Origin: Ornithinimicrobium faecis
GTDB taxonomy: Bacteria > Actinomycetota > Actinomycetes > Actinomycetales > Dermatophilaceae
Assembly: GCF_023923225.1 (NCBI RefSeq)
Contig: NZ_CP099489.1
Location: 2,790,001-2,854,000 of the forward strand
Reading direction: 5' to 3'
Length of the DNA stretch: 64,000 nucleotides
Both the position numbers and the translations under genes were made by a program. The notes below the pieces were generated by a model that was not told the DNA's origin, did no database searches, and was given only the letters and a program-made list of their open reading frames with translations. Below are positions 16,663 to 29,900 of the stretch, one piece after another (position 1 is the first letter of the stretch; the number at the start of each line of letters is the position of its first letter).

Positions 16663-17604
16663 GTGAGTGCAACTCCCGGGCCGGGCGCCCTGCGCCGCTA
16701 TCCGCGGCGCCGCAGGGTGGTCGGCGACCTGCGGTTCTGGCGCGACGTGCCGCTCCCCGGTCTGGACCGCCGCAGTGACCTCTACGTCTGGTTGCCGCCG
16801 GGCTATGACCGCAACTCCTCGCGGCGCTATCCGGTGATCTATCTGCACGACGGGGCCAACCTGTTTGACCGCAAGACCGCGTTCATTGGCGTCACCTGGT
16901 CGGCCGACCGTGCTCTGATGTCGCTGCACGAGAAGGGCATTGACGTCATCGCGGTGGGTGTCCCCTGCTCCCCCGACCGCCGGATCGAGGAATACTCCCC
17001 CTATCACCAGGTCGGCATCGGTGGCGGGAACGCGGACGCCTATGTCGCCTTCCTGACCGAGCGTCTCAAGCCGTGGGTCGACGCGGCGCTGCGCACCCGC
17101 CCCGAGCGCGAGCACACCCTGACCGCCGGCTCCTCGATGGGCGCGGTGGTGAGCATGCACGCCTGGGTGCGACGGCCGGATGTCTTCGGTGGTGTCGGCG
17201 CCTTCTCCCCGGCCCTCTGGGTGCCCGGTGAACCGCACCTGCGCGACATCGAGGCCGCCCTGCACGCGCCCCACGCCCCGACCAGGTTCTATGTTGACGT
17301 GGGCGGGCACGAGGAGCCGGACAACCCGAGCGCGCAGGCTGCCTATGTGCAGGACAGCGAGCGGGTGGTTGGTGCGCTGCGAGCCGCGCGGGCGCCGGTG
17401 CGCTATGTCTATGACTCCGCGGCCTTCCACACCGAGTCGGCGTGGGCGGAGCGGCTCCCCTCGGCGCTGGCCTGGCTGCTGAGCGGGTATGCCGTGCAGC
17501 GGCCGGGTGCGCAGGCCCGGGGCGAGCGTGGGCTGGGTGCGGGGCTGCGACGCCTCACGGGGAGCCTGCAACGGCTCTCGCGCCGGGGTCAGATGCCGAG
17601 GTAG
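16663..17604 (+). CDS. Esterase of the alpha/beta-hydrolase fold (PF00756 type)
   Basis: A 313-residue hydrolase without a signal peptide. YPVIYLHDGANLFD provides the oxyanion region, GSSMG contains nucleophile Ser158, and VDVGGHEEPDN and FHTESAW supply candidate Asp/Glu and His of the triad. The family includes S-formylglutathione hydrolase-like, mycolyltransferase-like and Fes-type siderophore esterases; the sequence does not decide among these. Its last 16 bases overlap the 3' end of the convergent livF gene. Confidence 0.87.
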   Translation: MSATPGPGALRRYPRRRRVVGDLRFWRDVPLPGLDRRSDLYVWLPPGYDRNSSRRYPVIYLHDGANLFDRKTAFIGVTWSADRALMSLHEKGIDVIAVGVPCSPDRRIEEYSPYHQVGIGGGNADAYVAFLTERLKPWVDAALRTRPEREHTLTAGSSMGAVVSMHAWVRRPDVFGGVGAFSPALWVPGEPHLRDIEAALHAPHAPTRFYVDVGGHEEPDNPSAQAAYVQDSERVVGALRAARAPVRYVYDSAAFHTESAWAERLPSALAWLLSGYAVQRPGAQARGERGLGAGLRRLTGSLQRLSRRGQMPR

Positions 17605-18299
17605 GCCTGGATCACGCGGTCGTCGGCCAGCAGGTCGGCGGCTGGACCCTGGTGGGCGATCTCACCGCTCGACAGGACATAGCCGTGATCAGCGGCCCGC
17701 AGCGCACGCCGGGCGTTCTGCTCGATCAGGACGACGGTGGTGCCGGAGGCACGGATCTCCTCGATGGTCGAGAAGACCTCGTCGACGATCTTGGGCGCGA
17801 GCCCCATCGACGGCTCGTCGAGCAGGATCAGGCGCGGACGGGCCACGAGGGCCCGGCCGATGGCGAGCATCTGCTGCTCACCCCCAGAGAGTGCACCAGC
17901 GGGCAGGTCCCGGCGCTCGGCCAGCACCGGGAACCGCTCGTAGACCTCGCCGATCGCTGCGGCGTCGTTGGTGTGCCAGCCACCGAGCTGGAGGTTCTCG
18001 TGGATGGTGAGCGTGCCCAGGATCTGTCGCCCCTCCGGGACCTGCACCAGGCCCTCACCGACGAGTTTGTGGGCCGGCACCTTGGTGATGTTGCGACCCT
18101 CGAAGGTGATGGTGCCCGAGCGGGGTCGAACGATGCCGGATACGGCGTTGATGATCGAGGACTTGCCGGCACCATTGGCACCGACCAGCGTGATCAGTGA
18201 GCCCGGCGCGGCCTCGAACGAGACGCCGCGCACCGCCTCGACGCGGCCATAGGTCACGACCAGGTCGGTGACCTTGAGGATCGGCTCGACCATGCTCAT
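17589..18299 (-). CDS. livF: Branched-chain-amino-acid-type ABC transporter ATP-binding protein
   Basis: A 236-residue ATPase. Walker A is GANGAGKSS, the signature LSGGEQQML, and Walker B LILLDEPSMGL, the last being characteristic of LivF. It energises uptake through the LivH/LivM-type permease at the inner membrane. The start codon overlaps the livMG stop by four bases (ATGA). It is the last gene of a livK-livH-livMG-livF series on the minus strand. The ligand may be a branched-chain amino acid, but this transporter class also imports amides, urea and organic acids. Confidence 0.93.
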   Translation of the reverse strand: MSMVEPILKVTDLVVTYGRVEAVRGVSFEAAPGSLITLVGANGAGKSSIINAVSGIVRPRSGTITFEGRNITKVPAHKLVGEGLVQVPEGRQILGTLTIHENLQLGGWHTNDAAAIGEVYERFPVLAERRDLPAGALSGGEQQMLAIGRALVARPRLILLDEPSMGLAPKIVDEVFSTIEEIRASGTTVVLIEQNARRALRAADHGYVLSSGEIAHQGPAADLLADDRVIQAYLGI

Positions 18300-19975
18300 G
18301 ATGCGTCCTCCGACTCGGAGCTGCCGAGATAGGCCTCGACGACAGCGGGGTTGTTGGCGATCTCATCGGGAGTACCGGTGGCGATGACCTGACCGAAGTT
18401 GAGCACGACGATGCGGCTGCAGGTCTTCATCACCATGCCGACGTTGTGCTCGATGAGCAGGATCGTCAGGCCGTCCTGGGCCAGGGAGGAGATCAGGTCG
18501 GACAGAGCGTCCGCCTCAACGTGGTTCATGCCAGCAGCCGGCTCATCGAGGATCAACAACGAGGGGTCCGAGGCGAGCGCACGGGCAATCTCCAACCGGC
18601 GCTGGTCGCCATAGGACAGGGCCGAGGCCTTGGTGCCCGCTTTGTCGGTGAGGCCGACGCGCTCCAAGCACGCTGCGGCGTGGACCATCAGTTGGCGCTC
18701 GTCATGACGGGCCGACGGCAGCCAGAGCAGTCGTCGCAGGAAGGTCGGCTTGCTGACCAGGTGACCGCCCACCATGACGTTCTCCAGTGCGGACAGTCGG
18801 GCAAACAGCTTCGAGTGCTGGAAGGTGCGGCTGACTCCGGCCGCGGCGATCTTGTGCACCGCTGCCTTGCCTGGCTGCAGCCCCAGCACCTCGGCGGTGC
18901 CGGAGGTGCTGCGGGCGAGTCCGCTGATCATGTTGACCAGGGTGGTCTTGCCGGCCCCGTTCGGACCAATGAGGCCGATCACCTCACCACCGGTGACGTG
19001 CAGATTGATGTCCTTGTTGGCGTGGACACCGCCGTAGTCCTTGCCGAGGCCGACCAGCTTGACCACGGTCTCCCCCGTTGCTGGGTGGGCCCGCTGCGAG
19101 AGCCCTCCAGCGTCGGCGGCAGCGGTCGCGGCCACCAGCTTGCGGCTGCGCCGCGGCAGGAGACTGGCGATTCCGCCGGGCAGGAACAAGATGACCAGCA
19201 GCATCAGCAGACCGGCGAGGAACGGTCGGATCCAGCCCGCCTCGATGCCGATGGCTCGCTGGACCTCGGGAACCATCTCGAGGAAGACGCTGCCCAGCAG
19301 CGGGCCGAAGAAGGCAGTGGACCCGCCGACCACCGCAGTCACGAGGCCGTCGATGGCCTTGCTAAAGCCGAAGTCCTCGGGCGCCAACAACCGGACGAAG
19401 TAGGCCCACAGGACGCCATAGAGTCCGGCGAGGGTGCCGGCGGTGACGAAGGCCGACAGCCGGTGGCCGCCCACATCGATGCCCATGGCCCGCGCGGCCA
19501 GCTCGTCCTCGCGGATTGCCTCGAGGGCGCGGCCGTAGCGCGAGTTGGCCTGCCGCCAGAACCAGTAGGCCACCACGGCGAGGATCACCCAGGCCATCCA
19601 GGGCTCAACGACCTTGGGCACGGACATGCCCTGGGCACCGCCGGTCCAGTCCATGTTGATGATCAGGATGCGGATTGCCTCGGCGAACGCCAGGGTGGCG
19701 ATGGCCAGGAAGACGCCGCGCAACCGCATCGTGGGCAGTCCGAGCACGACGGCGGTCAGCGCTCCCACGGCCATGCCGATCACGATCGCGATCAGCAGGG
19801 CGGGCAGGTCACCGACATCATCCGGCGAGGGGGCCAGGCTGGCAGCGGTGAAGCCTGCGATCGAGGCGAAGCCGGCCTGGCCCAGGCTCAACTGGCCAGC
19901 GACCAGCACGGCATAGAAGGAGTAGGCGAAGATCGCGCCGAGCGCGATGAAGACGAAGGTCGATTCGGTGAACAC
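18296..19975 (-). CDS. Fused LivM permease - LivG ATPase of ABC importer
   Basis: A 559-residue fusion. Residues about 1-290 form a LivM-type permease (SLGQAGFASIAGFTAASLAP, LRLLAPEDFGFSKAIDGL) with around eight to nine helices; residues about 310-555 form a LivG-type ATPase with Walker A GPNGAGKTTLVN, signature LSYGDQRRLEIARAL and Walker B LLILDEPAAGMN. The linker is about 20 residues rich in Arg, Ala and Ser. The GTG start follows the livH stop codon directly with no spacer. The stop overlaps livF. Fused LivM-LivG proteins occur in several actinobacteria. Confidence 0.93.
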   Translation of the reverse strand: MFTESTFVFIALGAIFAYSFYAVLVAGQLSLGQAGFASIAGFTAASLAPSPDDVGDLPALLIAIVIGMAVGALTAVVLGLPTMRLRGVFLAIATLAFAEAIRILIINMDWTGGAQGMSVPKVVEPWMAWVILAVVAYWFWRQANSRYGRALEAIREDELAARAMGIDVGGHRLSAFVTAGTLAGLYGVLWAYFVRLLAPEDFGFSKAIDGLVTAVVGGSTAFFGPLLGSVFLEMVPEVQRAIGIEAGWIRPFLAGLLMLLVILFLPGGIASLLPRRSRKLVAATAAADAGGLSQRAHPATGETVVKLVGLGKDYGGVHANKDINLHVTGGEVIGLIGPNGAGKTTLVNMISGLARSTSGTAEVLGLQPGKAAVHKIAAAGVSRTFQHSKLFARLSALENVMVGGHLVSKPTFLRRLLWLPSARHDERQLMVHAAACLERVGLTDKAGTKASALSYGDQRRLEIARALASDPSLLILDEPAAGMNHVEADALSDLISSLAQDGLTILLIEHNVGMVMKTCSRIVVLNFGQVIATGTPDEIANNPAVVEAYLGSSESEDAS

Positions 19976-20851
19976 TCAGACCTCACGCACCTTGCGCGCC
20001 CCGAAGAGCCCCTGCGGGCGGACCAGCAGGATCAGGAAGAGCAGGCCGAAGGCGACCAGGTCGCGCCAGCTCGAGGAGAGGTACTGGACCGCGAACACCT
20101 CGGCGAGACCGAGCAGCAGGCCACCCACGAGTGCTCCTGGCAGGGAGCCCATGCCCCCGACGATGATCACGGCCAGCCCCTTGAGCTCGATCGCCGTGCC
20201 CATGCCGAGCTGGGCGCTGTTGACGTTCATGGCGAACAGCGCGCCCGCCACGGCTCCCAGTGCCGACGAGATCGCGAAGGTGGTCATCGTCACCCGGTCG
20301 ACGTTGATGCCCAGCACGCGGGCCGCAGTCGGGTTCTCGGCGACGGCCCGCATCCCGCGACCGAGCCGGGACTTGGCGACGAGCAGGGTCAGCGCGATCA
20401 CCAGACCCACCGAGATGACCATGATGGCCACCTGCACCAGGGTGACCTGGGCGCCGAACACGCTGAAGGTTGTGTTCGGGAAGGAGTCGGCCGGGAAACG
20501 CCGGGTGTTGGGGCCGTAGCGCCACTGGAGCAGCGCGATGAACATCCCCGCCAGGGCGATGGAGGAGATCAACCCCGCGAAGTGGGCATCCGGTCTGTTC
20601 TTCAGCGGTCTGAAGGCGACCCGTTCGATGATCATTCCTAATATCCCGCCGACGACGAAGACGATCGGCAGGGCGAGCCAGATCGAGAGGCCGGCCACCT
20701 CGACCAGCTCGATCCCGACGAAGGCGGACACGGCGAACACTGCTGGGTGGGCCAGGTTCAGCCGGTCCAGCACGCCGAAGACCAGCGTGAAGCCGATCGC
20801 GAACAGCGCGTAGATGGACCCGATGAAGAGTCCGTTGAGCAGTTGTTGCAT
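19976..20851 (-). CDS. livH: Branched-chain-amino-acid-type ABC transporter permease
   Basis: A 291-residue inner-membrane permease with about eight helices. LNGLFIGSIYALFAIGFTLV at the N-terminus and SALGAVAGALFAM plus GMGSLPGALVGGLLLGL in the second half are LivH features. It is followed without a gap by the fused livMG gene and preceded, 43 bases away, by livK. Together they complete one importer. Confidence 0.93.
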   Translation of the reverse strand: MQQLLNGLFIGSIYALFAIGFTLVFGVLDRLNLAHPAVFAVSAFVGIELVEVAGLSIWLALPIVFVVGGILGMIIERVAFRPLKNRPDAHFAGLISSIALAGMFIALLQWRYGPNTRRFPADSFPNTTFSVFGAQVTLVQVAIMVISVGLVIALTLLVAKSRLGRGMRAVAENPTAARVLGINVDRVTMTTFAISSALGAVAGALFAMNVNSAQLGMGTAIELKGLAVIIVGGMGSLPGALVGGLLLGLAEVFAVQYLSSSWRDLVAFGLLFLILLVRPQGLFGARKVREV

Positions 20852-20894: not shown

Positions 20895-22073
20895 TCAGTC
20901 GAGGACGGCGAAGGCGCCGTTCTCAATCACCTGGACGACAGCCTCGTGCTCGGCGTCGCGGTTCTCGTTGATGGTGATGGAGCCCAGCACGGTCGGCAGG
21001 TCTGTGATGTTGCCCAGACCGGCCTGGATGCCCTCGCGGCCACCGTCGCAGCCCTCGCGCACGGCGTGGTCGATGATCGTCATCGCGGCATAGGCCTGCG
21101 CGGCGAACTGGTCGGGCCCGCTGCCGAACTCCGCCTCGTAGGCCTCGAGGAAGTCAGCGTTCTCGGGGTTGTCCGAGGCGGAGTTCCAGGCGGCACCCAC
21201 GACGACACCCTCGGCGGCGTCCCCGGCGTCAGCCATGAGCTGGGGGTTGTTGAAGCCATTGCCACCGACGATCGGCACGTCGATGCCGAGCTCGCGGGCC
21301 TGGGTGACCAGCGGGATGGCAGCCTCGATGAGGCCGGAGACGAAGATGGCGTCGGGGTCGGCGTTCTTGGCCTCAGTCAGCAGGGCCCGGAAGTCGGTGT
21401 CGGCCTTGGAGAAGGTCAGCGTGTCGGCGACGGTAATGCCCTCCTCCTCCAGCGAGGAGGCCATGACGTCATAGCCCGACTCGGTGAACGCGTCGTCGTT
21501 GGAATACATGACGATGACGTTCTCCAGGCCGTAGGTCTCCACGGCCGCGGCGACGGTCTGCGGGATGACCTGGCCCTCGGTGAGGGAGTCACGGAAGATC
21601 CAGTCGCCCTGCTCAGTGATGCCCTCGGCGGTGTTGGAGATCGCCAGCACGGGGACGCTCTCCTCCTGCGCGATCGGCTGTGCCTGGAAGGCCGTGTTGG
21701 ACAGGGTCGGGCCGATGATGATGCTGGTGTCGTCGCCCGCGAAGCCCTCGAAGACGCTGATGGCCTGCTTGGGGTCGGTCTGGTCGTCCTCAACGGTCAG
21801 GGCGTAGGTCACGCCCTCCTTCTCGTTGAGGTGCTTGGTGGCGAGCTCGAGACCGTTCTGCTGGGACTCTCCGTAGGACGCGGCGGCACCGGTCAGCGAC
21901 AGCGCGGCGCCGACGGGCACCTCGCCCTCGATGACGCAGTCGTCGCCGGTGCCCTCGCCGGCGAGGGCACCGCCGTCTCCACCGCCGTCTCCACCGTCGT
22001 CGGACCCGCAGGCGCTCAGGGTCAGTGCCAGGACGCCCGCTGCTGCGGACAGCTTGAACAGGTTGGTGCGCAT
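20895..22073 (-). CDS. ABC transporter substrate-binding lipoprotein (LivK/Leu-binding type)
   Basis: A 392-residue lipoprotein: lipobox TLSAC (Cys22), Asp/Gly-rich spacer, then a periplasmic-binding-protein type I fold (VPVGAALSLTGAAASYGESQ; VAETYGLENVIVMYSNDD-like central strands). It presents ligand to the LivH/LivM-type permease. The ribosome binding site GGAGG is eight bases upstream of the ATG. The left end of an IS5-type element begins only 22 bases upstream of the start codon, so the natural promoter is not adjacent. Ligand specificity cannot be inferred. Confidence 0.92.
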   Translation of the reverse strand: MRTNLFKLSAAAGVLALTLSACGSDDGGDGGGDGGALAGEGTGDDCVIEGEVPVGAALSLTGAAASYGESQQNGLELATKHLNEKEGVTYALTVEDDQTDPKQAISVFEGFAGDDTSIIIGPTLSNTAFQAQPIAQEESVPVLAISNTAEGITEQGDWIFRDSLTEGQVIPQTVAAAVETYGLENVIVMYSNDDAFTESGYDVMASSLEEEGITVADTLTFSKADTDFRALLTEAKNADPDAIFVSGLIEAAIPLVTQARELGIDVPIVGGNGFNNPQLMADAGDAAEGVVVGAAWNSASDNPENADFLEAYEAEFGSGPDQFAAQAYAAMTIIDHAVREGCDGGREGIQAGLGNITDLPTVLGSITINENRDAEHEAVVQVIENGAFAVLD

Positions 22074-22095
22074 GAATTTTCCTCCAGGGGGTTAG

Positions 22096-23293
22096 GGAAG
22101 CGCTGATTTTCTCGCGCGGTCGGGGCCGTGTCGTGTCCTGAGGCGTGGGGGCCGGTCGGGGAGAATGGGGTATGCGTAGCGAGCAGCCTTCGTTCACTGA
22201 TGTTGAGTACGGCAACCGTCGGCGGGTCTCGCGTCGGGAGAAGTTCTTGGAGTCGATGGACTCGGTCATCCCGTGGGCACGGTGGGTGGGGTTGATCGAG
22301 CCGCACTACTACGACGGCAAGAAGGGGCGTAAGCCCAAGCCGGTGGAGACGATGCTGCGGATGTACTTGCTGCAGGTCTGGTTCTCCCTCTCGGATGAGG
22401 GTGTGGAGGAAGCGATCTACGACTCGTACGCGATGCGCAAGTTCATGGCCCTGGACTTCGCGGTCGAGCAGGTCCCGGATGCCACCACGCTGTTGCACTT
22501 TCGGCATCTGCTGGAGGAACACGACCTGGGTCAGAAGCTGTTTGCCGACCAGAACGAGATCTTCGATGCCCAGGGGTGGGTCATGCGCGGCGGGTCGATC
22601 GTGGACGCCACGATCATCGCCGCACCGTCGTCGACGAAGAACAAGGCTGGTACGCGGGACCCGCAGATGCACCAGAGCAAGAAGGGCAACCAGTGGTACT
22701 TCGGCATGAAGGCCCACATCGGTGTTGATGCTGGCACCGGGTACGTGCACTCCGTGACTGCGACCGCCGCGAACGTGCACGACCTGGACGAAACCGTCCA
22801 CCTGTTACGCCCCGATGACCGGGTTGTCTACACCGACGCCGGCTACCAGGGCATCGCGAACCGTCCCGAGATCACCGACGATGAGCACCTGAGCAAGGTG
22901 GAGTTCCGGGTCGCGGCACGCAAGGGTGTGCTCAAGACGATGCCCGAACCGGACCGGGCGGCGCAGTCGGCTCAGGCCGGGGTGCGGGCCAAGGTCGAGC
23001 ACCCGTTCCTGATCGTCAAGCGCGACTTCGGGTTCACCAAGACCCGCTACCGCGGACTCGGCAAGAACCTCAACCACCTGAACGTGTTGTTCGCTTCGGC
23101 GAACTGGCTGATGCGCGCGCGTGCCGTCGCCCTGATGGGGTGACGGCAAGGCGCCAGCCTGCCCGAAACGGCCCAGGAGTCCCGAAACCGGGACCGCAGG
23201 GCCGGGAAACGGAGCCTGTCCCCGCCCGCTGAGCACTCCCAGGACACAGCCGGGCAACTTCACGGCCCGAATCGCTATTAGATCAGCGATTCC
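22096..23293 (+). mobile_element. IS5-family insertion sequence, 1198 bp, complete
   Basis: Terminal inverted repeats are GGAAGCGCTGAT (22096-22107) and, read inward from the right, GGAATCGCTGAT (23293-23282): 11 of 12 positions agree. The element is flanked by the four-base duplication TTAG (22092-22095 and 23294-23297), which fits the YTAR target of the IS5 group. A single transposase gene fills it and is intact. The right TTAG contains the TAA stop of the hydroxy-acid oxidase gene; the left end lies 5' to the livK ribosome binding site. A 150-base non-coding tail separates the transposase stop from the right end. Confidence 0.9.
22172..23143 (+). CDS. IS5-family transposase
   Basis: A 323-residue DDE transposase. 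N-terminal DUF772-type region (ETMLRMYLLQVWFSLSDEGV, YDSYAMRKFM). Catalytic acids are Asp in GSIVDATII, Asp in VVYTDAGYQG and Glu in KVEHPFLIVKRDFGFTKTRYRG, whose Y-(2)-R-(3)-E-(6)-K spacing resembles IS4/IS5 enzymes. ATG 22172 is preferred over an upstream in-frame ATG because a purine-rich GGGGAGAATGGGG precedes it. The reading frame is uninterrupted, so the copy may be active. Confidence 0.93.
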   Translation: MRSEQPSFTDVEYGNRRRVSRREKFLESMDSVIPWARWVGLIEPHYYDGKKGRKPKPVETMLRMYLLQVWFSLSDEGVEEAIYDSYAMRKFMALDFAVEQVPDATTLLHFRHLLEEHDLGQKLFADQNEIFDAQGWVMRGGSIVDATIIAAPSSTKNKAGTRDPQMHQSKKGNQWYFGMKAHIGVDAGTGYVHSVTATAANVHDLDETVHLLRPDDRVVYTDAGYQGIANRPEITDDEHLSKVEFRVAARKGVLKTMPEPDRAAQSAQAGVRAKVEHPFLIVKRDFGFTKTRYRGLGKNLNHLNVLFASANWLMRARAVALMG

Positions 23294-24583
23294 TTAGGCG
23301 TTGTGTGCGGGTGCGTGGGTGCTGGCCGGGTGCAGCACGGCGTGATCCGGCGTGAGTTGGTCGAGCGAGGTGACGCCGAGCAGACGCATGGTCCGGTGGA
23401 CCTGACTGGTCAGGATCTCCAGGGCACGGGCGACTCCCGCCTCGCCACCGGCCATCAGCCCGTAGAGGTAGGCCCGCCCGACGAGCACGGCGTCGGCGCC
23501 GTTGGCCACGGCCGCAACGATGTCCCCACCGTGCATCACCCCGGTGTCGAGCAGGACGGGGACCCGCCCGCCGACGGCCTCGGCGATCTGCGGGAGCACC
23601 TCGAGTGGCGTCACCGAGCGATCGAGTTGGCGACCCCCGTGGTTGGAGACGATCAAGCCATCGGCCCCGAGATCGACGAACTCCTTGGCGTCCTCGACGT
23701 TCTGGATGCCCTTGAGCACGATCGCCCCTGACCAGTTCTCCCGGAGCCAGACCAGGTCCTGCGTGTTCAGCGTCGGATCGAACATCTTGTTGACCAGCGA
23801 CTCGACCGTGCCGCCGGACTCGCGCAGGGAGGCGAACTCCAGCGGCTCCGTGGTCAGCAGGTTGGCCCACCAACGAGGGTGCAGCGCCATGTCGGCGAGG
23901 GTCTTGGGCGTGAGCTGCGGTGGGATCGTCATCCCGTTGCGCACATCGCGCAGGCGCTGACCGGCGATCGCGGTGTCAACCGTCAGCACCAAGGTGGTGA
24001 ACCCAGCGGCCTGGGCGCGCTGCATCAGGGCCAGGGAGGCCTCTCGGTCCTGCCACAGATATAACTGGAACCAGCGTTGCAGGTCCGGCAGCTCGGAGGC
24101 GATGTCCTCCACTGACACCGTGCCCATGGTGGAGATCGCGTAGGGGACGCCGGCAGCCGCGGCGGCGCGGCCGACGGCCCGCTCCCCCTCGTGCTGCATC
24201 ATCCGGGTGAACCCAGTCGGTGCCAGGATCAGCGGGATCGGGCTGCTCACGTCCAGGATCCGGACTGCGGTGTCCATGCCGGACACATCGCGCAGCACCC
24301 GGGGACGGAACTCGACGCGACCGAAGGCCTCGCGGGCCCGGGACAGGCTGACCTCGCTCTCGGCGGCACCGTCGACGTAGTCGAAGGCGGACCTGGGAGT
24401 GCGGCGTCGGGCGAGGTGGCGCAGGTCCTCGATCGTCTGGGCTCGCTCGAGACGTCGTCTGGTGACCTGCAGGGTCGGCCTGTCGATCTTGACCAGCGGT
24501 CTGAGTTCCTCAACCCTGGGGAGCCGTCGCTTCACCCGTGCCATCTGCGGCGTCCTGCGCTTCCTGTTCGGCTGCATATCCAT
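23294..24583 (-). CDS. lldD: FMN-dependent alpha-hydroxy-acid oxidase/dehydrogenase
   Basis: A 429-residue flavoenzyme of the L-lactate dehydrogenase / glycolate oxidase / lactate monooxygenase family. FMN-site features: PLILAPTGFTRMMQHEGE, the YLWQDR strand, TVDTAIAGQRLRD, catalytic His and Arg in VSNHGGRQLDRS, and the phosphate loop LLDTGVMHGGDIVAA plus VLVGRAYLYGL. It oxidises a 2-hydroxy acid to a 2-keto acid; the exact substrate is unknown, so lldD is a family label. The TAA stop overlaps the TTAG duplication left by the insertion sequence; removal of the insertion would put the stop 18 bases ahead of livK. Confidence 0.88.
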   Translation of the reverse strand: MDMQPNRKRRTPQMARVKRRLPRVEELRPLVKIDRPTLQVTRRRLERAQTIEDLRHLARRRTPRSAFDYVDGAAESEVSLSRAREAFGRVEFRPRVLRDVSGMDTAVRILDVSSPIPLILAPTGFTRMMQHEGERAVGRAAAAAGVPYAISTMGTVSVEDIASELPDLQRWFQLYLWQDREASLALMQRAQAAGFTTLVLTVDTAIAGQRLRDVRNGMTIPPQLTPKTLADMALHPRWWANLLTTEPLEFASLRESGGTVESLVNKMFDPTLNTQDLVWLRENWSGAIVLKGIQNVEDAKEFVDLGADGLIVSNHGGRQLDRSVTPLEVLPQIAEAVGGRVPVLLDTGVMHGGDIVAAVANGADAVLVGRAYLYGLMAGGEAGVARALEILTSQVHRTMRLLGVTSLDQLTPDHAVLHPASTHAPAHNA

Positions 24584-24611
24584 GCAGTCCTGCGAATAGT
24601 TCTTCGGAGGA

Positions 24612-24617
24612 TCCTAG
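24612..24617 (-). promoter_or_regulatory. Candidate -10 box for the hydroxy-acid oxidase gene
   Basis: TAGGAT on the minus strand, 28 bases before the ATG, leaving room for the AGGA ribosome binding site. No clear -35. If real, it would have driven the oxidase together with the liv genes before the IS inserted. Confidence 0.35.
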
Positions 24618-24701
24618 CCTCACGCGGCACGCCCTCTGGCACCGTTGGCCCGCTGTGGCCAGATCGTGACCCCGTCGTGACCCGTCGCCCAGAAACGGGA
24701 C

Positions 24702-25544
24702 TCAGAGCAGGACCGTGGCGAAGGTCCCCGTCTGCACGAAGCCGACGTGCCGATACGTCGCCAGCGCGGGCGTGTTGAAGTCGTTGACATAGAGCGTCAC
24801 GGTCTGCGCAACGTGCCGCAGCACATGCTCAACGACTGCGGCCATGGCCGGCACCGCGATGCCCCGACCGCGCCAGCGCGGGTGCACCCACACGCCCTGG
24901 ATCTGGGCGACGTCGAGGGCGACACTGCCGATGTCCGCTTTGAAGATGACCTCGCCGTTCTCGATCCGCACCAGCGACCGGCCGTCCCGCACGAGGGCAC
25001 CGACGGACAACCGGTAGGCACGGTCCGAGCCGCGAAAAGGTGGATAGCCGATCTCCTCCGTGAACATGGCGGCAGCTGCGGGCACCACCAGGTCGAGCTC
25101 CTCGGCGGCGGCCGGGCGGACGGCCGTGTCGATCGGGACGCCCAGCACGCTCGGCGCGGAACGGATGGTCATCACCGGCTGATTGCCTCGCACCTCTCGC
25201 GGCGGACCCCACTGCGGTGCGAGCACCTCCCACAGGGGCAGCACCTGGTCGACCGGGCCAAACAGTGAGGAGGCCCAGGCCCGACGCTTGACGACCTTGG
25301 CGGCCAGCGGCTCCACCATGTCGGAGGACACCTCGACCGGCACGACGTTGGCGGAGGTCCAGCACAGACCGGTGCGCCCGCCACGGTCATAGCCGAGCAC
25401 CGAGTTGCGTCCGCCGGTGAGCCCACCCTCCAGGATCCGAGCCGCGACAAAGACATTGGAGACGGGGTCACGCCCGCAGATCTCTAGGGCCTGGGTGGCG
25501 TCGGCCATTCCCAGGCCACGCACCGGGGCCGGCATGCGGAGCAT
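24702..25544 (-). CDS. GNAT-family N-acetyltransferase (DUF4081-containing)
   Basis: A 280-residue protein. The C-terminal half has the GNAT acetyl-CoA loop VHPRWRGRGIAVPAM and final strand YRHVGFVQTGTFATVLL; the N-terminal half is a DUF4081-type domain. In many actinobacteria this gene lies directly after ispG and before proS; here glycerol and other genes intervene on one side and the liv cluster on the other, which supports the view that those cassettes are insertions. Substrate unknown. The transcript may be leaderless (TAGTCT six bases before ATG). Confidence 0.85.
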   Translation of the reverse strand: MLRMPAPVRGLGMADATQALEICGRDPVSNVFVAARILEGGLTGGRNSVLGYDRGGRTGLCWTSANVVPVEVSSDMVEPLAAKVVKRRAWASSLFGPVDQVLPLWEVLAPQWGPPREVRGNQPVMTIRSAPSVLGVPIDTAVRPAAAEELDLVVPAAAAMFTEEIGYPPFRGSDRAYRLSVGALVRDGRSLVRIENGEVIFKADIGSVALDVAQIQGVWVHPRWRGRGIAVPAMAAVVEHVLRHVAQTVTLYVNDFNTPALATYRHVGFVQTGTFATVLL

Positions 25545-25599: not shown

Positions 25600-25659
25600 C
25601 GCCGTAGTGCCGCGGGGCGCGAGGATCGGTGGACAGTCACCACTACGTAGGAGATGCTC

Positions 25660-27414
25660 GTGCAGCCACGCCCCCTGACCACGAAGAGCCGGCAGGCAGC
25701 GCTGGCAGCACTCGCCGACAGCGGAGCGGGCGGCGCAGAGATCGATGTCCTGGTCATCGGTGGCGGGGTGACCGGCGCTGGCACCGCTCTCGATGCCGCC
25801 ACGCGCGGACTGTCCACGGTTGTCGTGGAGGCGCAGGACTGGGCCTCCGGCACGTCCTCGCGCTCGACCAAGCTGGTCCACGGCGGCCTGCGCTATCTGC
25901 AGATGCTTGATTTCAAGCTGGTGCACGAGGCCCTCACTGAGCGTGGGCTGCTGCTCAGCAAGATCGCGCCGCACCTGGTCAAGCCGATGGCTTTCCTCAT
26001 CCCGCTGGAGCACCGCATCTGGCAGCGTGCCTATTACGGCGCGGGCGTCAGCCTCTACGACCTGCTCGCCAACATCATGCCGGGCCGCCGCGCACTCCCG
26101 ATCCACCAGCACACGACCCGCAAGGGCATGTTGAAGCAGTTCCCAGACCTCAAACACGACACGGCGATCGGCGCCGTGAAGTACTGGGACGCCACCGTCG
26201 ATGACGCCCGGCTGGTCGCCACCCTGATCCGCACGGCCACGACCTATGGCGCGCACGCCGCCACCCGCACCCAGGTCACCAAGCTCACCAAGGACGCGTC
26301 GGGCCGCGTCAACGGCGCGATCCTGCAGGACCTGGAGACCGGCGCGGAGATCACGGCACGGGCTCGCCACGTCATCAACGCCACCGGCGTGTGGACCGAG
26401 GACACCGAGCAGCTGGCCGACACCAGCGGCGGTTTGCGGGTCCTGGCGTCCAAGGGCATCCACCTGGTGATCCCGCGCGAGCGCATCAAGGGCACCTCGG
26501 GGCTGTTCTTGCAGACCGAGAAGTCCGTGCTCTTCTTCATCCCCTGGTCGCGCTATTGGATCCTGGGCACGACGGACACTCCCTGGGAGCTGGACCCGCA
26601 GCACCCGGTCCCCACGGCGGCGGACATCGACTATGTGCTGGCCCACGCCAACGAGGTCCTCACCACCCAGCTCACCCGGGAGGACGTCGTCGGCTCGTAT
26701 GCCGGACTGCGGCCCCTCCTGCAGCCCGGCACCAAGGAGGGCACGGACTCGGCCAAGGTGAGCCGTGAGCACACGGTGGCCAGCCCCGTGCCGGGGCTGA
26801 CCATCGTCGCCGGAGGCAAACTGACGACCTACCGGGTGATGGCCAAGGACGCCGTCGACTTCGCCATCGGCGGTGAGGCCGTGGAGACCCCGAGCATCAC
26901 CCACGAGATCCCGTTGGTGGGTGCCGAGGGCGAGAAGGCCGTGCGCCGTCAGGCGGCGCGCTGGCGCAAGGAGTTTGACTGGTCCGAGCAGATGGTGGAC
27001 CACCTGCTGCACCGCTACGGCTCGCTGCTGACCGAACTGGTCGAGAGCATCCGCGAGGACCCCTCGCTCGGCCGTCCACTGCAGGGGGCTCCGGCCTATC
27101 TGAGAGCCGAGATCGCCTACGCCGCGAGCCACGAGGGCGCCCTGCACCTCGAGGACATCATGTATCTGCGGACGCGGCTGAACTACGAGGCAGCCGATCG
27201 TGGCCAGGCCGCCCTGGTCGAGATCGCCGGGCTGGCCGGTGACGTGCTGGGCTGGGACGAGGAGCGGCGCCAGCGCGAGGTCGACGCCTACCGCGCGCTG
27301 GCTGCTGCCGAGGAGCAGGCAGCCCTCCAGCCCGACGACGAGTCCGCCGAGCGTGTCCGCAGTCAAGCACCTGACCTCACACCGATGGCTCCCGTTGGCA
27401 CGCAAGGAAACTGA
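25660..27414 (+). CDS. glpD: Glycerol-3-phosphate dehydrogenase/oxidase
   Basis: GlpD oxidises sn-glycerol-3-phosphate to dihydroxyacetone phosphate at the membrane, passing electrons to quinone. The 584-residue protein starts with an FAD-binding VLVIGGGVTGAGTALD, followed by GTSSRSTKLVHGGLRYL, the family signature; the C-terminal domain (after about 400) is the DAO_C type. GTG 25660 is preferred because GGAG lies six bases upstream, whereas the in-frame ATG six bases earlier directly abuts the GGAG. It begins a glpD-glpF-glpK series. Confidence 0.95.
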   Translation: MQPRPLTTKSRQAALAALADSGAGGAEIDVLVIGGGVTGAGTALDAATRGLSTVVVEAQDWASGTSSRSTKLVHGGLRYLQMLDFKLVHEALTERGLLLSKIAPHLVKPMAFLIPLEHRIWQRAYYGAGVSLYDLLANIMPGRRALPIHQHTTRKGMLKQFPDLKHDTAIGAVKYWDATVDDARLVATLIRTATTYGAHAATRTQVTKLTKDASGRVNGAILQDLETGAEITARARHVINATGVWTEDTEQLADTSGGLRVLASKGIHLVIPRERIKGTSGLFLQTEKSVLFFIPWSRYWILGTTDTPWELDPQHPVPTAADIDYVLAHANEVLTTQLTREDVVGSYAGLRPLLQPGTKEGTDSAKVSREHTVASPVPGLTIVAGGKLTTYRVMAKDAVDFAIGGEAVETPSITHEIPLVGAEGEKAVRRQAARWRKEFDWSEQMVDHLLHRYGSLLTELVESIREDPSLGRPLQGAPAYLRAEIAYAASHEGALHLEDIMYLRTRLNYEAADRGQAALVEIAGLAGDVLGWDEERRQREVDAYRALAAAEEQAALQPDDESAERVRSQAPDLTPMAPVGTQGN

Positions 27415-27446
27415 GCCTCACAGCGTGCGCCTCTAGCACATCTGCC

Positions 27447-27465
27447 GCAGCGTCTGTCACGCTGC
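27447..27465 (+). promoter_or_regulatory. Small hairpin between glpD and glpF
   Basis: GCAGCGT, loop CTGTC, ACGCTGC: seven perfect pairs about 33 bases after the glpD stop. Could be a weak attenuator or processing site in the operon mRNA, or an operator. Confidence 0.4.
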
Positions 27466-27505
27466 CCTCAACTAATCCGCTCAACGATGAGAATGGAGTC
27501 CCCGC

Positions 27506-28240
27506 ATGGGAGATATCTTCCTCTACGAGATTATGGGCACCGGCCTGCTCACCCTCCTGGGTTGTGGCGTGGTGGCCAACGTGGTCCTGCCCAAGACCAA
27601 GGGCAACAACGGCGGTTGGCTGCTGATCAACTTCGGCTGGGGGCTGGCGGTCTTCGCCGGCGTCTATGCAGCCTGGAAGACCGGCGCCCACCTCAACCCC
27701 GCCGTGACCTTCGGCATCCTGGCCAGCGGAGCCGATTTCTATGACGGCGCGCTCGAAAACATCCCGGTCAACTTCGGCAACACCATCGGTTATCTCGCCG
27801 CCGAGATGATCGGCGCCTTCCTGGGCGCGGTGATCATGTGGCTGGCCTACAAACAGCACTTCGACCAGGACGCTGAGCCAGCCACCAAGCTGGCTGTCTT
27901 CTCCACCGGCCCAGAGATCCGCAACCCGCTGTGGAACACCCTCACCGAGATTGTCGGCACCTTTGTGCTGGTCTTTGTCATCCTCATGTTTGGCCATTCC
28001 CCCGCGGGGCTTGGCCCGTTAGCCGTCGCGCTCCTGGTGGTTGGCATCGGCGCCAGCCTCGGTGGTCCCACCGGCTACGCCATCAACCCGGCCCGTGACC
28101 TCGGGCCCCGCATCGCGCACGCACTCCTACCCATCCCGGGCAAGGGCGGCAGCGACTGGGGCTACTCCTGGGTCCCGATCGTCGGCCCGATCCTCGGTGG
28201 AGTCCTGGCCGGAGTCCTCTACATGGGGGCCTTCGCCTGA
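27506..28240 (+). CDS. glpF: Glycerol uptake facilitator (MIP/aquaporin family)
   Basis: A 244-residue channel with six helices and the two half-helix motifs HLNPAVT and AINPARD. The second is followed by Asp (NPARD), as in glycerol-conducting aquaglyceroporins rather than strict water channels. It admits glycerol for GlpK. Ribosome binding site GAATGGAG lies seven bases before ATG. Neighbours glpD and glpK confirm the role. Confidence 0.95.
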   Translation: MGDIFLYEIMGTGLLTLLGCGVVANVVLPKTKGNNGGWLLINFGWGLAVFAGVYAAWKTGAHLNPAVTFGILASGADFYDGALENIPVNFGNTIGYLAAEMIGAFLGAVIMWLAYKQHFDQDAEPATKLAVFSTGPEIRNPLWNTLTEIVGTFVLVFVILMFGHSPAGLGPLAVALLVVGIGASLGGPTGYAINPARDLGPRIAHALLPIPGKGGSDWGYSWVPIVGPILGGVLAGVLYMGAFA

Positions 28241-28257
28241 CCTGACCCAGCACGTGA

Positions 28258-28291
28258 GCCGGGTGCCCACCACCCGTGATGAGCACCCGGC
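28258..28291 (+). terminator. Intercistronic hairpin between glpF and glpK
   Basis: GCCGGGTGC (28258-28266) and GCACCCGGC (28283-28291), nine perfect pairs around a 16-base loop. It is within the operon and may lower read-through into glpK, or protect the glpDF message. Confidence 0.55.
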
Positions 28292-28346
28292 CTGACACCT
28301 CGGCACAACCCATCCCGTACACAACGAAGTGAAGGAGCGCTCAGCA

Positions 28347-29900
28347 ATGGCTGACACAGCAACGCCGAACTACGTCCTCGCGATCGACCAGGGCACCACG
28401 AGCACCCGGGCCATCGTGTTCACCAAGTCCGGCGAGATCCACTCCGTGGGTCAGAAGGAGCACGAGCAGATCTTCCCGAAGGCGGGGTGGGTCGAGCACG
28501 ACCCGGCCGAGATCTGGGACAACACCCGCGAGGTGATCGGGCTGGCGATGGGCAAGGGCAGCCTGGCCAACTCCCAGCTGGCAGCCATCGGCATCACCAA
28601 CCAGCGCGAGACCGCTGTGGTGTGGGACAAGAACACCGGCGAGGCGGTCTACAACGCGATTGTCTGGCAGGACACCCGCACCGACAAGATCGTTGCCGAG
28701 CTCGCCGGTGACGAGGGCGCGGACAAGTACAAGGCGATCTGTGGCCTGCCGCTGGCGACCTACTTCTCCGGCCCCAAGGTGAAGTGGATCCTGGACAACG
28801 TCGAGGGCGCCCGAGAGAAGGCCGAGGCCGGTGATCTGCTGTTTGGCAACACCGACACCTGGACGCTGTGGAACCTCACGGGCGGGGTGGACGGCGGCGT
28901 GCACGTCACGGACGTAACCAACGCCTCTCGCACCATGCTGATGGACCTGAAGACCCTGAGCTGGGACGAGAACATCGCCTCCGACATGGGCATCCCGATG
29001 TCCATGCTCCCGGAGATCAAGTCCTCCTCCGAGGTCTACGGCGAGAGCACCAAGCTCGGTGTCCCGATCGCCGGCATCCTGGGCGATCAGCAGGCTGCCA
29101 CGTTTGGCCAGGCGTGCTTCGAGAAGGGCATGTCGAAGAACACCTACGGCACCGGCAACTTCATGCTGCTCAACACCGGCACGGAGATCGTCCCGTCCGA
29201 GAACGGTCTGCTGACCACGGTCTGCTACAAGATCGGCGAGCAGGACACGGTCTATGCCCTCGAGGGCTCGATCGCCGTCACTGGCTCCCTGGTGCAGTGG
29301 CTGCGCGACAACCTCGGCCTGATCAAGGAGGCTCCGGAGGTCGAGGACCTGGCCAAGAAGGTCGACGACAACGGTGGTTGCTACATCGTGCCCGCGTTCT
29401 CCGGCCTGTTCGCGCCCTATTGGAAGGACGACGCGCGCGGTGCGATTGTCGGCCTGACCCGCTATGTCAACAAGAACCACATCGCCCGGGCCTCCCTGGA
29501 GGCCACGGCCTTCCAGACCCGCGAGGTGCTGGATGCGATGAACGCCGACTCCGGCGTGGACCTTGCCGAGCTGCGCGTCGACGGCGGCATGATCGCCAAC
29601 GAGACGCTGATGCAGTTCCAGGCCGACATCCTGGGCGTGGACGTCGTGCGCCCCAAGGTCGCCGAGACCACAGCGCTCGGCGCGGCCTACGCCGCCGGCA
29701 TCGCGGTCGGATTCTGGCAGGGCGAGCAGGACGTCATCGACAACTGGGCCGAGGGTGCCCGCTGGAGCCCGAAGATGGGCGACGCCGAGCGCGACCGGCA
29801 GTATCGCCAGTGGAAGAAGGCCGTGACCAAGACCTTCGACTGGGTGGACGACGACGCTGAGGCCGTCGAGGAGAAGGCCGCCGAGGCAGCCGAGGGCTGA
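28347..29900 (+). CDS. glpK: Glycerol kinase
   Basis: GlpK phosphorylates glycerol to glycerol-3-phosphate with ATP. The 517-residue FGGY kinase has the phosphate loop [15 protein letters not shown], the catalytic Asp in [24 protein letters not shown] and the C-terminal [19 protein letters not shown] 28347 is chosen because AAGGAG lies nine bases upstream; a GTG 18 bases earlier overlaps that site. An acidic Glu/Ala tail (about 20 residues) follows the fold. Last gene of glpDFK. Confidence 0.97.

Follow-up and report, generated by a model that had tools for sequence, protein, structure and literature searches.

Operon polarity belongs to the known consequences of insertion sequences (IS): when an element inserts between two neighbouring operon genes, the reading frames on either side stay open. 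Members of the IS5-type group have a length of about 1.2 kb. For IS5, passages of two published accounts give YTAR as the target that is duplicated on insertion (PMC10359306, PMC5493358). An element of this type is located in a stretch of 64,000 nucleotides from Ornithinimicrobium faecis (NZ_CP099489.1, positions 2,790,001 to 2,854,000), designated the window below, where it separates a gene for a hydroxy-acid oxidase from livK, the first gene of a putative importer. An earlier reading made from the letters alone (the sequence-only reading) had proposed that the element splits a former operon at this junction. We regard it as highly likely that an insertion at a YTAR site in the oxidase stop codon split a former oxidase-livKHMGF unit, left its genes whole and probably altered the expression of the importer. 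The element and its borders comprise the following features (coordinates are those of the window):

22096..23293, plus strand: IS5-family (YTAR-type) insertion sequence of 1198 bp, a single copy in the 4.62-Mb genome
22092..22095, no strand: left target duplication TTAG, assigned from the sequence and the YTAR rule in related elements
23294..23297, no strand: right copy of the target duplication, TTAG (read as CTAA on the operon strand), holding the TAA stop codon of the oxidase gene
22096..22107, plus strand: left terminal repeat GGAAGCGCTGAT
23282..23293, minus strand: right terminal repeat GGAATCGCTGAT, identical to the left repeat at 11 of 12 positions
22145 (GTG) or 22172 (ATG) to 23143, plus strand: transposase with DUF772 and DDE_Tnp_1 domains, reading frame uninterrupted
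22081..22085, minus strand: GGAGG ribosome-binding site of livK, intact in the sequence

The transposase matches the NCBIfam family IS5_4 (NF033581) with 293.6 bits at a cut-off of 140, and the Pfam families PF01609 (DDE_Tnp_1) and PF05598 (DUF772) are above their cut-offs. The element thus shows the characteristics of the IS5-type group, which are a DDE transposase, a length of 1198 bp with short terminal inverted repeats starting with GG, and a 4-bp duplication of the YTAR type. Both the family and the anatomy given by the sequence-only reading (1198 bases, 12-base ends, TTAG duplication) were correct, the latter to the base. At the right end, positions 23269-23292 form a near-palindrome (GAATCGCT, 8 nt, AGCGATTC), for which a hairpin in the oxidase mRNA immediately 3' of the stop codon is predicted.

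On the minus strand, the oxidase gene ends with GCC TAA, and this TAA is located within the right TTAG and thus retained. livK starts at 22073 on the same strand and is separated from the left end of the element by 22 bases, TTAG included. Joining of the flanks without the element and one TTAG yields GCCTAACCCCCTGGAGGAAAATTCATG, i.e. TAA, 18 bases and ATG with GGAGG kept, which is the restored junction that had been proposed. The junction of an element-free relative (G006), GCCTAACCCCTGGAGGAAAACATG, has 15 bases from stop to start and is almost identical to this empty site; the species itself is represented by one genome. The TTAG on the plus strand that holds the oxidase stop would have served as landing site for the low-copy element. 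Because the 4-base duplication kept the stop codon on one side and left the ribosome-binding site of livK untouched on the other, both coding sequences are intact in the present sequence, in agreement with the earlier statement that both genes remain whole. The genes of the split unit, all on one strand, are the following:

23294..24583, minus strand: FMN-dependent 2-hydroxy-acid dehydrogenase/oxidase, first gene of the unit (Pfam FMN_dh, 437 bits; adjacency in relatives)
20895..22073, minus strand: livK-like substrate-binding protein (Pfam Peripla_BP_6, 178 bits)
19976..20851, minus strand: livH-like permease (profile matches)
18296..19975, minus strand: livM-livG fusion with permease and ATPase domains in one ORF of 559 amino acids (profile matches)
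17589..18299, minus strand: livF-like ATPase, last gene of the unit (profile matches; gene order)

Evidence for the former unit comes from 31 genomes of the genus, the own genome included, of which three are less than 90% complete. A livK match (identity of at least 68%, E<=1e-50) is present in 18 of them, the own genome counted, and in all 17 others an oxidase ortholog (66-91% identity) is located directly upstream of livK on the same strand. None of these 17 has an insert between the two genes, and the order oxidase-livK-livH-livMG-livF is conserved in each, while the 13 genomes that lack a livK match contain no oxidase match above 54% identity. The comparison with orthologous loci free of the IS, which the sequence-only reading had proposed as a check, is therefore in favor of its former oxidase-livK operon, as are the five-gene order and the near-identical junction of G006. 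The five genes occur together in two genomes (G018 and G029) with none of their other window neighbours in a 16-kb stretch (the contig of G022 is too short to judge), which points to their moving jointly. Where the gap from oxidase stop to livK start was measured, in 15 of the 17 relatives, it was between -4 and 81 nt; G013 was omitted from this count on account of a TGA in its oxidase frame. Stop and start codons overlap in G018 and G029 and, as read by eye, in G008; the junction of G016 has 39 bases and a TGA stop, so that junction length varies among relatives. The oxidase of G013 (L152), with its in-frame TGA and a C-terminal part that is apparently in another frame, is possibly a pseudogene or reflects a sequencing error.

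Outside the genus, livK (E<=1e-100) was found in six genomes of a family sample of 149 genomes, and in four of these (G045, G507, G565, G580) the oxidase gene is adjacent on the same strand. The other two are the cases that could speak for oxidase and livK never having formed one operon, with the empty site being a coincidence: in G548 the genes are 3.3 kb apart on opposite strands, and in G552 they are located on different contigs. In a further genome of the sample (G036), an oxidase with 69% identity is present but livK at this threshold is absent. Operon status is derived here from gene order and spacing, which is a further point for that explanation, but in all 17 genus relatives and in four of six other family genomes the two genes adjoin on the same strand; together with the overlapping stop and start codons in three relatives, this makes it extremely improbable. 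A single ancestral transcription unit of the oxidase gene and livK-livH-livMG-livF with an 18-base oxidase-livK junction is well supported by the empty site and the gene order in relatives, and the ancestor of the present locus would have carried this unit.

The substrate of the split unit can be narrowed only tentatively. The oxidase scores below the curated cut-off for L-lactate dehydrogenase (320 vs. 376) and also below that for MftD, and the solved structures closest to it in sequence are those of lactate oxidases and mandelate dehydrogenases. For livK the nearest solved structures by sequence are binding proteins of the HAAT family, some of whose members have presumably been solved with 2-oxo acids. 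Our guess is that the transporter imports a 2-hydroxy or 2-oxo acid for the oxidase. The 559-residue permease-ATPase fusion protein has a match in 17 of 17 genus relatives. Divergently upstream of the unit, at 25654-29900, glpD, an aquaglyceroporin-like gene and a gene that resembles glycerol kinase by the start of its sequence are located beside a DUF4081-GNAT gene, and glpD and the GNAT gene are close to the unit in 14 of the 17 relatives.

The sequence-only reading had stressed that the element sits exactly between stop codon and ribosome-binding site; the position is true, but it is not remarkable, since the YTAR target rule predicts such a seat. Among 81 loci with related transposases, L176 included, a 4-bp duplication was found in 38 and none in 40, and three loci had no qualifying ends. 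YTAR accounts for 36 of the 38 duplications, the other two being TAAA and CTAC. End pairs were selected for terminal repeats matching at 10 or more of 13 positions and GG ends, with a scoring bonus for a duplication of any sequence and none for YTAR; in view of these 36 cases the TTAG duplication in O. faecis is not a matter of chance. In 464 kb of the genome (the window and 20 evenly spaced 20-kb stretches, 68% GC, both own target copies counted) there are 327 YTAR sites, of which 174 are intergenic, 114 are located in genes and 39 are stop codons of called genes; their density is 0.28 per kb within genes vs. 3.1 per kb in intergenic regions. Random choice among these sites would hit a stop codon in about one of eight cases (12%, 39/327) and spare coding sequence in about two thirds.

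The related insertions were classified with a home-made gene caller that was trained on the own genome and is less reliable for other organisms: 33 of all 43 are intergenic, five are on a stop codon and five reach a gene, and for loci of at least 60% GC (n=21) the numbers are 14, five and two. As 37 of 82 loci had no YTAR-flanked ends and L130 was dropped because it is the same insertion as L056, the count of insertions is 44 instead of 45, and the classification covers 43 because for L103 a different end pair scored higher. Six frames with a coding score end in the duplication; Pfam backs four of them (a LacI-type regulator, a FitA-like antitoxin, GlnD and another transposase) and gives no match for two. 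The Pfam scan covered these six and L078, which lacks a coding score, while long frames without coding score at L052, L059, L072 and L121 were outside it. At L060 (3211-3444), a copy of a related element in Micropruina is located on the stop codon of the FitA-like antitoxin gene, possibly at an operon seam.

With the own insertion and five of the 21 related ones at loci with 60% GC or more on a called stop codon, it might be supposed that the element actively targets stop codons, but the YTAR baseline of 12% suffices for these numbers (6/44, p 0.43; 5/22, p 0.11; one-sided), there is no significant excess, and we rejected active targeting as very improbable. The exact landing position is that expected from the YTAR rule, and no special targeting of stop codons is needed. 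What decided the seat of the element was probably the scarcity of YTAR in GC-rich genes and its clustering in spacers and in TAA or TAG stop codons, as seen in the measured densities. Literature searches combining IS or IS5, stop codon and target found no paper on the coincidence of YTAR and stop codons, which is not proof that none exists.

G016, the closest of six relatives compared, carries the same IS elsewhere, its DNA being 87% identical, and the closest copy by protein identity among the matches listed (92%) is from Ornithinimicrobium murale. Over 1400 bases, the IS locus of G016 is identical to the record of O. murale DSM 22056, from which the genus of these relatives was taken to be Ornithinimicrobium. 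A class sample of 393 other genomes gave a match to the element DNA in one genome (E<=1e-60), and 96 other relatives gave matches in six (E<=1e-20), mostly partial; the IS5_4 family at E<=1e-40 is present in two of 31 genus genomes, the own included. A plasmid source was considered and rejected, the seven records found each having a partial coverage of 10-16%. In G013 there are four partial IS matches (75-85%; L133, L136, L137, L138), three of them at contig starts, which suggests divergent copies that break the assembly.

The importer genes are now cut off from the oxidase gene by 1.2 kb of IS DNA; the transposase reads away from livK toward the oxidase gene, and a transcript of the operon strand would cross the element in antisense. 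According to the sequence-only reading, the importer no longer receives its natural transcription from upstream, a claim that goes beyond the evidence given below. The 22 bases before livK are too short for a full promoter, and at the standard scan threshold no promoter was found on either strand of 21900-24800. In a consensus scan of the same region the operon strand was free of intrinsic terminators, and the only terminator-like site is on the plus strand inside the oxidase gene. A stretch of 54 nt at the right end of the element was considered as terminator on the operon strand and rejected, since its hairpin (GAAUCGCU...AGCGAUUC, -18.5 kcal/mol, z -1.9) is not followed by a U-run. Because of the missing intrinsic terminator on the operon strand, read-through from the oxidase gene into livK is possible. 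A looser scan gave one candidate within the element:

22106..22134, minus strand: candidate outward promoter at the left IS end facing livK, ACGACA (22129-22134), 17 nt, GAAAAT (22106-22111), 8 of 12 matches, weak

The -10 sequence of this candidate ends 32 nt upstream of the livK ATG. If active, such a promoter would drive livK-F independently of the oxidase gene and uncouple uptake from oxidation, which we consider possible but doubtful. It would have a parallel in E. coli IS5, which according to part of one study creates promoters for neighbouring genes (PMC11894529). Of 1260 random 120-mers, 3.9% score at least 8/12, as do 2.5% of 118 operon-internal ones and 13.9% of 122 from divergent upstream regions, and the related element L051 has an 8/12 match at the same place. 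Against such a promoter, the match is weak and under the standard scan threshold, and its -10 sequence lies within the conserved end of the element, where conservation may serve transposase binding; of 10 related elements, most do not share its -35 sequence. The best left-end scores of 11 elements are 8, 7, 7, 8, 6, 6, 6, 6, 6, 7 and 6, and 15% of random 110-mers reach 7; the best right-end scores are 5-7. Judged by its sequence, the match is a weak lead and not a promoter.

Complete silencing, in which polarity over 1.2 kb of IS DNA would stop oxidase transcripts before livK and make livK-F a dead unit, is favored by the lack of room for a full promoter in the spacer and of a promoter at scan threshold, and by single comparisons in which N/S is greater for the own branch (G000) than for that of G016 (livK 0.62 vs. 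0.35 with outgroup G002; livH 0.30 vs. 0.14 with outgroup G006). But all four liv reading frames are intact, and the sums over the liv genes for own branch vs. G016 show no excess with any of three outgroups (34/136 vs. 42/161 with G006, 29/152 vs. 38/143 with G002, 32/162 vs. 42/135 with G005), a test that would not register a recent insertion. Although single genes vary either way (livK 0.28 vs. 0.61 with outgroup G005), relaxed selection on the liv genes was rejected on these sums. Judging from these substitutions, the importer is apparently not decaying or has been so too briefly to show, and silencing appears unlikely. The absence of a terminator on the operon strand, the weak outward match and the absence of relaxed selection together leave lost transcription as more than the data carry; expression of the importer has probably changed in level, through partial read-through and/or an outward promoter at the left IS end, rather than simply ceased.

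The insertion is real and exact, but it is an ordinary event, and it makes a modest point on YTAR elements in GC-rich genomes. As a natural case it is clean, with 17 undisturbed relatives as controls, a conserved cluster separated and no gene damaged, and the numbers show that a short target rule and base composition decide where an IS can land, so that "exact" positions are less surprising. It may be speculated, with more doubt than confidence, that in GC-rich genomes the YTAR target amounts to a preference for gene ends and spacers. Such elements would then do little harm to coding sequences as they spread; their main effect would be to part operons at gene junctions and to supply an outward promoter, here uncoupling substrate uptake from oxidation.

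In comparison with operon polarity as caused by IS elements elsewhere, the locus differs in that the duplication retains the upstream stop codon and no coding sequence is damaged, and polarity is only putative here. With E. coli IS5 and the IS5-type (YTAR) group, as they are described in parts of two accounts, the element shares the DDE transposase, the short terminal repeats and the duplicated YTAR (PMC10359306, PMC5493358), while differing from E. coli IS5 in being actinobacterial. The IS5-activated fucAO operon with its fusion promoter, as presented in part of one study (PMC11894529), is similar in that an IS5 end can lend promoter parts to an adjoining operon. There the IS is co-directional with the downstream genes and the transposase promoter reads into the operon, whereas in O. 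faecis the IS is opposite to the downstream genes and the candidate outward match is located on the strand opposite to the transposase.
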